Assembly: GCF_028707975.1 (NCBI RefSeq)
Contig: NZ_JAQVZX010000017.1
Location: 917 to 33,358, forward strand
DNA: 32,442 bases
Reading direction: 5' to 3'
From: Syntrophomonas sp.
GTDB taxonomy: Bacteria > Bacillota > Syntrophomonadia > Syntrophomonadales > Syntrophomonadaceae
The notes beneath the pieces are model-generated. The model was not told where the DNA came from and made no database searches. It worked only from the letters and a program-made list of their open reading frames with translations. Positions 695 through 29,271 of this stretch are shown here, in pieces (within the stretch, counting starts at the first letter, position 1; each line of letters begins with the position of its first letter). The position numbers were made by a program, and so were the translations under genes.

Positions 695-711
695 ACAAGG
701 AGGTGGTTCTA

Positions 712-1314
712 ATTAACGACCAGCAAGCAGGTGTCACGGAAGCTCTTGAAAGAGAGCAGAGTGCTGAGCCCGCTGAGGAAATGAGGAATCAGGGTGATTG
801 GTATGTGGTACATACCTATTCGGGATATGAAAACAAAATCAAGGTTGATCTGTCTAAAAGAGTTGAATCAATGAATATGCAGGATAAAATTTTTGAGGTT
901 ATTATTCCCGAGGAACAGGAAGTAGAATACAAAAATGGCAAGCGCAAGGTTACCAATAAGAGGATTTTTCCTGGATATGTCATTGTAAACATGATTATGG
1001 ATGATGATTCCTGGTATGTGGTACGTCATACTCCTGGAGTAACTGGTTTTGTAGGAAGTGGAAGCAAGCCCATCCCTCTCCATCAGGAAGAAATAGACAA
1101 GATTCGCCGCCAGATGGGATTGATGGAAAAGAAGACCATGATTATTGATATTGAAATTGGGGAGAGTATCCGGGTCAAATCCGGGCCTTTTGCCAATTTT
1201 GAGGGAGTAGTCCGGGAATTATTGCCGGAAAAAGGAAAGATAAGGGTCAATATTTCCATGTTCGGCAGGGAGACACCTGTAGAACTGGATTATGAACAAA
1301 TAGAAAAGATATAA
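712..1314 (+). CDS. nusG: Transcription elongation/antitermination factor NusG, probable ATT start
   Basis: NusG binds RNA polymerase and modulates pausing, Rho action and coupling to ribosomes. The NGN domain begins at DWYVVHTYSGYEN, and the C-terminal KOW domain carries VKSGPFANFEGVV and MFGRETPVEL. The start is uncertain. A near-perfect ribosome binding site, AAGGAGGTG (697-705), lies eight bases before an in-frame ATT at 712. The in-frame GTG at 703 lies inside that site, and ATG 781 has only GAGG two bases away. Starting at 712 gives 200 residues with an acidic N-terminal extension. Starting at 781 gives 177, close to the length I recall for the Bacillus protein. The gene identity is certain; the start is not. 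Confidence 0.96.
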   Translation: MNDQQAGVTEALEREQSAEPAEEMRNQGDWYVVHTYSGYENKIKVDLSKRVESMNMQDKIFEVIIPEEQEVEYKNGKRKVTNKRIFPGYVIVNMIMDDDSWYVVRHTPGVTGFVGSGSKPIPLHQEEIDKIRRQMGLMEKKTMIIDIEIGESIRVKSGPFANFEGVVRELLPEKGKIRVNISMFGRETPVELDYEQIEKI

Positions 1315-11875: not shown

Positions 11876-12127
11876 TTGCCACTGGAAAAGATCAGGGATT
11901 ATCCCAAGGTAATTGGAAGCAAGCAAGTTAAGAAAGCACTTAGCCGGGATGAGGCCAGGAAAGTATTTATTGCCGCTGATGCCGAACCCCACATTGTGGA
12001 AGCCATAAAAAGGCTTTGCCAGGGAAAAGAAGTGGAAGTCGAAATGGTGGAGACTATGGAAAAACTCGGCAAATCCTGTGGGATCGATGTGGGCTCAGCA
12101 ACGGTAGCCCTCTTGAAAGACCACTAA
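11876..12127 (+). CDS. ybxF: L7Ae-family ribosome-associated protein (YbxF/L7Ae-like)
   Basis: This 83-residue protein belongs to the L7Ae/L30e/S12e family, whose members bind kink-turn RNA. Family features include the segment SRDEARKVFIAADAEPHIVEAIKRLC and the later KLGKSCGIDVGSATVALL. The position between rpoC and rpsL is that of Bacillus ybxF. Its exact role in bacteria is not settled; kink-turn binding is known for the family. The start is TTG with AAGGAGGAGG 9-11 bases upstream. It is the first gene after the promoter at 11778-11806. Confidence 0.92.
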   Translation: MPLEKIRDYPKVIGSKQVKKALSRDEARKVFIAADAEPHIVEAIKRLCQGKEVEVEMVETMEKLGKSCGIDVGSATVALLKDH

Positions 12128-27986: not shown

Positions 27987-28751
27987 ATGATTAGCCTAAA
28001 AAATCGAAATGAGATAGGCAAAATGAGAAGAGCCGGGCGCCTGGTTGGCCGGGTGCTAAAAATGCTGGAGAATATAATAGAACCAGGTATTAGTACCGGG
28101 CGACTAAATGCCCTGGCGGAAGAAGAATGCAGACGAAACGGTGCCCTACCGGTATTTAGAAATTATCCTCACCCTAGGGGAGGAAGAGCGTTTCCTGCTG
28201 CTATCTGCACTTCACTAAACGAGGAGGTTGTTCATGGTATCCCCGGTTCCAGGCTTCTTAAGGAGGGGGATATCATAAGCATTGATTTTGGGGTTATACT
28301 GGACGGATTTGCTGGCGATGCAGCAATTACAGTTCCAGTGGGCCAGGTTGATTCCAGGGTAAGGAAATTGATTACTACTACCGAAGAATCTCTTATGAGG
28401 GGTATAGAACAGGCCCAGGCCGGCAGAAGATTAGGTGGGGTATCCCAGGCCATTCAGGAACATGCTGAGAAAAATTGCTTTTCCGTTGTGAGAGATTTTG
28501 TTGGGCATGGTATTGGTCGGGATATGCATGAACAACCTCCTGTACCTAATTATGGAAAACGTGATCGAGGACCGGTCTTAAAGGAAGGAATGACAATTGC
28601 TATTGAACCGATGCTCAATATAGGTAGTTACCAGGTATATACCAGGTCCGATGAGTGGACAGTGGTAACCCGCGATGGAAGCTGGTCTGCACACTTTGAG
28701 CATAGCATTGCCATTACTGCCGGGGAACCGGAGATCCTTACCTTAAGGTAA
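27987..28751 (+). CDS. map: Methionine aminopeptidase, type I
   Basis: This metalloprotease removes the initiator methionine from nascent proteins. The 254 residues show all five metal ligands: D100, D111, H174, E207 and E238, in IDFGVILDGFAGDA, GHGIGRDMHE, AIEPML and FEHSIAIT. No N-terminal zinc-finger extension is present, so it is the short class Ia form. It starts directly after the adk stop. The stop at 28749-28751 is just before the ribosome binding site of the KOW gene. Confidence 0.98.
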   Translation: MISLKNRNEIGKMRRAGRLVGRVLKMLENIIEPGISTGRLNALAEEECRRNGALPVFRNYPHPRGGRAFPAAICTSLNEEVVHGIPGSRLLKEGDIISIDFGVILDGFAGDAAITVPVGQVDSRVRKLITTTEESLMRGIEQAQAGRRLGGVSQAIQEHAEKNCFSVVRDFVGHGIGRDMHEQPPVPNYGKRDRGPVLKEGMTIAIEPMLNIGSYQVYTRSDEWTVVTRDGSWSAHFEHSIAITAGEPEILTLR

Positions 28752-28766
28752 CGGGGGTGATCGGTC

Positions 28767-29060
28767 ATTTATGATGATGATGTAGGAAAAGTAGTTTATT
28801 CCAAATCAGGTCGGGATAAAGGCAGGATGTTTGTGGTTATAAAGCTGGTAAACGATCGATTTGTATTAGTGGCTGACGGTGATCAACGTAAAATCGAAAA
28901 TCCCAAGCTCAAAAACATCAAACACCTGCAATGGACCAGGCTCAAGGCGGAGGAAGTTGAAAGCTACCTGGCGAGAGGCGAAATTCCCGGGAACCATATT
29001 ATTAGAAAAAACCTGAAGAGAATACAGGACGGAGGGGAAGGGGGTCTAATTGATGGCTAA
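28767..29060 (+). CDS. KOW-domain RNA-binding protein (L14e-like), apparent ATT start
   Basis: This is a 97-residue basic protein of the small KOW/L14e-like family found between map and infA in Firmicutes (Bacillus ybzG position). The KOW motif is [20 protein letters not shown], followed by [15 protein letters not shown]. The first in-frame ATG (28827) falls inside the motif, so it cannot be the true start. No ATG, GTG or TTG lies between there and the in-frame stop at 28758. The only plausible codon is ATT 28767, nine bases after the GGGGG of GGGGGTGATC, a close match to the 16S tail complement. Four tandem ATG codons and TAG in another frame follow at 28771-28785. Function beyond RNA binding is not known to me. 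Confidence 0.85.
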
Positions 29061-29271
29061 GGAAGATGTCATTGAGCTCGAGGGGACGGTGGTGGAACCG
29101 TTGCCCAATACCATGTTTAAAGTCGAACTGGATAATGGCCACAAAGTCCTCGCCCACATATCTGGAAAGATGCGCATGAATTTTATTAGGATATTACCCG
29201 GAGACCGGGTGATGGTGGAATTGTCGCCTTATGATTTAAACCGGGGAAGAATTATATATCGTTTTAAATAA
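29053..29271 (+). CDS. infA: Translation initiation factor IF-1
   Basis: IF-1 occupies the A site during initiation and helps IF2 and IF3. ATG 29053 gives the exact family length of 72 residues, [15 protein letters not shown] onward, with the OB-fold pieces [20 protein letters not shown] and [20 protein letters not shown] lies eight bases before it. The upstream in-frame TTG 29050 is less likely. The start overlaps the last eight bases of the KOW gene, which suggests coupled translation. Confidence 0.98.

Follow-up and report, generated by a model that had tools for sequence, protein, structure and literature searches.

A probable AUU start codon for the OLE-associated protein gene oapB in Syntrophomonas, and AUH starts in other genes of the Syntrophomonadaceae

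In a 32,442-nucleotide stretch of a Syntrophomonas genome (hereafter the window), a KOW-protein gene that sequence comparison identifies as a homologue of oapB (ybzG) very probably starts translation at the ATT codon at position 28767. We consider it quite probable that this AUU start, placed under a strong extended Shine-Dalgarno (SD) sequence, gives a low and IF3-sensitive yield of OapB, and that this kind of start has been kept in the family Syntrophomonadaceae; of this proposal, sequence comparison shows where translation starts, that the start is conserved, and that few genes have one of this kind. Throughout, AUH denotes an AUU, AUA or AUC start codon. The source genome (G000) belongs to the Syntrophomonas wolfei clade of this family of fatty-acid-eating bacteria. 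Its assembly is incomplete (177 contigs), and it was compared among others with two Syntrophomonas congeners, G001 (a single contig of 2.9 Mb) and G002. The features of the locus, together with a second OLE-partner homologue in the window, are as follows.

Positions 11876-12127, plus strand: L7Ae-family gene, presumably oapC-like from its resemblance to YbxF, with an ordinary TTG start
Positions 27987-28751, plus strand: upstream neighbour in the open reading frame list, which we take from its resemblance to be map (methionine aminopeptidase); TAA stop at 28749-28751
Positions 28753-28762, plus strand: extended Shine-Dalgarno sequence of oapB, GGGGGTGATC, as read in the sequence
Positions 28758-28760, plus strand: TGA stop in the oapB frame, within the SD; it bounds the open frame 9 nt before the ATT
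Positions 28767-28769, plus strand: probable ATT start codon of oapB, conserved in G001 and G002, with AUH at a like SD distance in the family
Positions 28767-29060, plus strand: oapB (ybzG) coding sequence of 97 codons, a predicted KOW, eL14-like RNA-binding protein (from alignment and PDB match)
Positions 28771-28785, plus strand: out-of-frame ATG ATG ATG ATG TAG, a by-product of Tyr-Asp-Asp-Asp-Val-Gly codons and not a conserved element
Positions 29053-29271, plus strand: infA (IF1), whose first 8 nt are shared with oapB

Several of these readings had already been made in the initial annotation and agree with the sequence: the frame is closed at the TGA and holds no ATG, GTG or TTG before the ATG at 28827, the ATT stands nine bases after GGGGG, the four ATG codons (28771-28782) and the TAG (28783-28785) lie in another frame, and oapB overlaps infA. 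After the TGA, the oapB frame reads TCG GTC ATT (28767-28769) TAT GAT GAT GAT GTA GGA; it is open over 28761-29060, and its TAA stop (29058-29060) overlaps the infA gene that begins with ATG at 29053. The SD GGGGGTGATC pairs, with one G-U, with the 16S tail of the genus, GGATCACCTCCT, which occurs twice in the assembly of G001 and in neither that of G000 nor that of G002. The ATT stands at a spacing of 9 from this SD, and the nearest canonical in-frame codon is 69 nt from it. In a survey of 45 window genes, oapB had no canonical start at its SD, and the only other accepted case was nusG. RNA structure predicted across the oapB start was nothing unusual (z 0.32 and -0.24).

The identification of the gene draws on structure matches and genomic context. 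A profile of 14 family members gave OLE-associated protein B (7k9b_A, E 1.9e-16) as the best PDB match, the first of 14 hits, with archaeal eL14 proteins ranking after it. The alignment runs from profile positions 5-90 to residues 5-90 and covers the KOW domain and the C-terminal part; once it is extended, the ATT falls opposite residue 1 of OapB. In Pfam and NCBIfam no family matched the protein above cut-off, and NCBIfam L14e matched below it. The gene order map-oapB-infA is that of a translation operon, and in 41 of the 50 family loci a script found infA as the neighbour of oapB; we presume the same map-infA neighbourhood for ybzG/oapB in Bacillus. OLE RNA (RF01071), whose co-occurrence favours the identification without being a requirement for it, is present in G000, G001 and G002 and in 44 of 54 Syntrophomonadaceae genomes. 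According to the available portions of the literature, OapB is a KOW protein of 11 kDa, its gene belongs to a translation operon and its ligand is OLE RNA (PMC9723947, PMC12054373), and Bacillus subtilis has an L14e-like gene (PMC2885750, available portion). The Syntrophomonas protein thus resembles OapB/YbzG of Halalkalibacterium halodurans in being a KOW protein of a translation operon in a genome with OLE RNA (available portions of PMC9723947, PMC12054373 and PMC11332333), from which it differs as a putative OLE partner known from its sequence match. The same portions of these three papers do not mention start codons for the H. halodurans gene.

The assignment of the start to the ATT, which the initial annotation had proposed, agrees with the comparison of relatives. 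The ATT and its SD are identical in all three Syntrophomonas genomes (G000, G001 and G002), and the family alignment of OapB begins at this codon, which aligns with Met1 of relatives. We found oapB in 58 of 61 genomes in a search of relatives and in 51 of 54 in a search of the Syntrophomonadaceae, and read the start regions of 50 Syntrophomonadaceae, G077 being left out where a contig end cuts the gene. Syntrophomonas zehnderi (G003) gave two oapB matches with equal scores on two contigs (L022, G003:C4 and G003:C18; L097 and L098), and one of these copies was counted. Starts were grouped by hand from the start-region table, the AUH class being defined by ATT, ATA or ATC at an SD spacing of 8-10 and by the absence of any canonical codon in frame at spacings from 2 to 19. 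AUH starts were present in 24 of the 50 genomes and in 11 of 23 genera (ATT 15, ATA 4, ATC 5; G000, G001, G002, G003, G005, G006, G010, G015, G018, G019, G021, G023, G026, G028, G033, G036, G064, G065, G066, G067, G068, G070, G072, G075). Five genomes (G004, G020, G025, G071, G073) were ambiguous, with ATG or TTG 3 nt from the AUH codon, and 21 had canonical starts (TTG 14, ATG 5, GTG 2); in the relatives G030, G016 and G012, ATG or GTG stands at the oapB start position. Since these 21 genomes start canonically, the function of oapB does not need the weak AUH start.

The neighbouring infA never starts at AUH in the same loci (ATG 36, GTG 4, TTG 1 among the 41 of 50 loci read), and 38 of these 41 starts lie 6-8 nt from an SD. 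The oapB stop and the infA start overlap or stand no more than 3 nt apart in 39 of the 41; through this overlap, it is possible that oapB is coupled to IF1 synthesis or feeds back on initiation. Outside the family, no clear AUH start of oapB appeared among 59 loci read (61 found): a script flagged seven, of which five show an in-frame ATG or TTG by eye and the remaining two (L067, L132) were left out of the clear AUH cases. As judged from these sequences, the AUH start of oapB is a trait of the Syntrophomonadaceae that was gained or lost several times, with at least nine changes between AUH and canonical starts and at least four third-base changes within AUH on a tree of 59 rows built from map, oapB and infA.

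The same device in nusG of the window and in genes elsewhere escaped the initial annotation. The nusG features of the window are as follows.

Positions 697-705, plus strand: SD of nusG, AAGGAGGTG, containing GTG at 703-705, the start that a gene caller would take
Positions 712-1314, plus strand: nusG coding sequence with a probable ATT start at 712, at SD spacing 8 (family comparison)

At a spacing of 8, an in-frame GTG within the SD is always present by construction. We judge this GTG not to be the nusG start, because, in the cases read, no separate SD stands at a suitable distance from it, and because in nusG of G007 a stop falls between the GTG and the ATT. In 21 of 30 family loci, nusG has ATT or ATC without a canonical alternative at spacing 4-13. 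The start position is canonical in five (ATG in G064, G026 and G063, GTG in G004, TTG in G003), is GTT in two (L266 in G074, L282 in G005), and in G062 and G013 an ATG stands one codon downstream of the ATT. Beyond the family, ten regions were fetched and nusG was found in seven: a canonical codon is available in four, ATT is the only candidate in G040, a member of the order, and G038 has ATA with a TTG six nt later. The seventh (L403 in G054, same phylum) has CTG at SD spacing 8 and no ATG, GTG or TTG before the conserved core, so that a CUG start is possible there. For nusG, judging by these loci, the AUH device may be older than the Syntrophomonadaceae.

In the family, infC starts at AUH in all 30 loci read (ATC 27, ATT 2, ATA 1), in keeping with the earlier remark that the oapB start belongs to the codon class against which IF3 discriminates, as in infC; read from this start, InfC aligns 3 to 3 with its model. 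For rny (RNase Y), 30 loci were fetched and 25 read, and AUH starts occur in 21 of the 25, among them the ATA of Syntrophomonas (L341 / L367, G000:C175, about 22580). An ATG stands at the same spacing in G031, G061 and G062, and G010 was misplaced by the script. Such ATG codons in relatives, exactly where others have ATA or ATT, offer what we regard as the best internal proof of these starts. Three further genes of G000 have strong SDs and apparent AUH starts. The ribE gene (ATT, IFTGLIEEVG; L342, G000:C175), read from the ATT, aligns residue 1 to model position 1, and rimP (ATA; L323, G000:C61) aligns 2 to 2 in one model. The third (ATT; L343, G000:C177) is presumably a GntR-type regulator by its resemblance; its available 38 aa had no NCBIfam match.

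These genes emerged from screens of G000 for an SD followed by ATH. With GGRGGTG at spacings of 9 and 10, 32 sites were read, and a long gene lacking a canonical start followed the ATH at two of them, oapB and infC; a frame of 53 codons on the strand opposite rpsL was disregarded. A screen at spacing 8 (35 sites, all read) added rny, ribE, rimP and the GntR-type gene. Against a reversed control, the pattern was not enriched at spacing 9 and 10 and was slightly enriched at 8. The notion that oapB and infC are the sole AUH genes was dropped once nusG, rny, ribE, rimP and the GntR-type gene appeared. The opposite notion, that this genome uses AUH starts generally, is not supported by a 431 kb sample of G000, in which a home-made codon-usage finder made 381 gene calls. 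Of these, 156 had no SD above threshold, 21 had no frame, 165 had a canonical start and 39 had none; among the 39, an SD score of at least 14 combined with AUH occurred only in nusG and oapB. An FtsA-like gene, so named by resemblance (minus strand, G000:C164, L357-L359), has an ATT that a weaker SD (INRNIVVALDVGTSFIKA) precedes at spacing 8 and that is a possible AUH start. An altered initiator tRNA was also considered; the sampled stretches hold five tRNA genes, none of them for Met.

IF3 discriminates against AUU, AUA and AUC starts, as established in the literature. An altered IF3 was considered as a cause of the AUH starts and rejected, the IF3 sequence of G000 looking ordinary. An ordinary IF3 and the strong SD lead us to expect weak, IF3-sensitive translation of oapB. 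In the proposed mechanism, the extended SD would select AUU 28767 as the start, rejection of such codons by IF3 would hold the output of OapB below that of the neighbouring genes, and, as with infC, a shortage of IF3 or a relaxed initiation would increase it; the run of ATG codons would have no part in oapB initiation. The Syntrophomonadaceae keep AUH starts in oapB and, to a wider extent, in infC, nusG and rny.

The main alternative is that AUU is merely a weak start tolerated under strong SDs, AUH codons drifting in and out without any regulatory role. We regard this as possible, if on balance somewhat doubtful. It would accommodate the AUH starts of ribE, rimP and the GntR-type gene, which have no obvious common role, as well as the repeated exchange between AUH and canonical codons in oapB; the exact SD+ATH sequences of rimP and ribE in G000 are also absent among the sites listed for the two congeners. 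Drift fits less well with the constancy of AUH in infC and its prevalence in rny, or with the pattern of substitution: AUG is only one mutation away, yet it is rarely taken. Third-base changes within AUH number at least four in oapB, five in rny, three in nusG and three in infC (at least 15 in sum), whereas rny and nusG show a single change between AUH and AUG apiece, a comparison that is not a formal test and in which oapB often turns to TTG. This turnover of the third base with few changes to AUG suggests that the weakness of the start is what is kept.

The initial annotation gave the ATG run a role of its own: initiation would be split between the AUU, yielding OapB, and the out-of-frame AUGs, yielding a dead-end peptide, so that the gene would sense initiation fidelity. 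We consider this very improbable. Members of the genus do retain two to four such AUGs plus the TAG, and where synonymous shuffles would lead one to expect 4.8 AUH genomes with a mini-ORF, 11 of the 24 have one, all of them within three genera of close relatives. The number of out-of-frame ATGs nevertheless follows the number of GAT (Asp) codons (four in G000, three in G001, two in G002), and 13 of the 24 AUH genomes have none in the first codons. The run in G000 is not beyond chance, because at least four ATGs arise in 27% of synonymous shuffles of its oapB (P = 0.27), and it stands at least 13 nt from the SD, in contrast to the 6-8 nt of most infA starts in the family. On the shuffles and the family comparison together, the run was rejected as a conserved decoy element. 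Of the two features that the initial annotation proposed to check for conservation, the AUH start was conserved in nearly half of the family and the ATG run was not.

An internal start at ATG 28827 or GTG 28833, which would leave the upstream part untranslated, is more improbable still. The ATG is the first in-frame one, and a gene caller restricted to ATG, GTG and TTG yields 77 aa from this frame; against this, the conserved KOW core G-x-V-V-x-S-K-x-G-R-D, invariant in many columns, precedes that ATG as first noted, the alignment to PDB OapB already runs from residue 5, and both internal codons have only weak SD scores. That an assembly or sequencing error removed an ATG or TTG start, a concern raised at the outset and natural for an incomplete genome, has a negligible probability, because both congeners, one of them a single contig, carry the same ATT and SD, and 21 further family genomes have ATT, ATA or ATC.

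The most defensible reading therefore remains an AUU start kept weak under a strong SD, and AUH starts in general are an already known kind of start. In Escherichia coli, pcnB has an AUU start, is translationally limited and is the second AUU gene of that genome besides infC; it encodes an unrelated protein and is a single gene, unlike the set of genes here. With infC itself, which has an AUU or AUC start and is autoregulated, oapB shares the combination of an AUH codon and a strong SD; the product of infC is the discriminating factor, whereas oapB would be a target and not a self-regulator, with a putative IF3 response. That response was proved for E. coli infC, and in Streptomyces a GTC start was shown by experiment to make sigR IF3-repressed (PMC5472188, available portion). 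There too a noncanonical start is conserved in a taxon (GTC in 32 of 34 species, GTT in 2) together with an extensive ribosome-binding site, and the sigR start sets a protein ratio; the codon is GTC instead of AUH, and the product is an oxidative stress regulator (same portion of PMC5472188). The two family nusG loci with GTT recall these sigR starts. In Staphylococcus aureus, the available part of PMC13009471 reports that, in poor medium, expression from AUU and AUA starts with extended SDs is about 10% of that from AUG. Its genes cvfC1 (AUU) and ccpN (AUA) resemble oapB in combining a conserved AUH with an extended SD, with reduced yield there; they are other genes of another Firmicutes class, and their starts were mapped by Ribo-Ret whereas ours come from sequence (PMC13009471, same part). 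The available portions of the literature name infC, cvfC1, ccpN, citZ and, in a cited title, pcnB as AUH-start genes, so documented cases are few. Our literature search, mostly outside subscription journals, returned no report of AUH starts for oapB, nusG or rny, and nothing linking Syntrophomonas to AUU starts or S. wolfei to OLE RNA.

For annotation, callers limited to ATG, GTG and TTG would predict an OapB that lacks its KOW core and misplace the N-termini of NusG, RNase Y and RibE. For the OLE field, the start suggests that initiation is the step which limits how much OapB is supplied; initiation is also the concern of bS21, which is reported as a further OLE partner (PMC12054373, available portion). 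Tentatively, and with some reserve, the AUH starts of infC, nusG, rny and oapB might form an initiation-stringency regulon in which IF3 activity would jointly determine how much is made of IF3, NusG, RNase Y and an OLE-RNP protein; were this so, the state of initiation would be linked to mRNA decay, to the OLE particle and to the coupling of transcription with translation. With AUH starts across many species of the Syntrophomonadaceae, these four genes make a natural candidate set of IF3-sensitive genes, and the family would let one ask whether IF3 controls more than itself.
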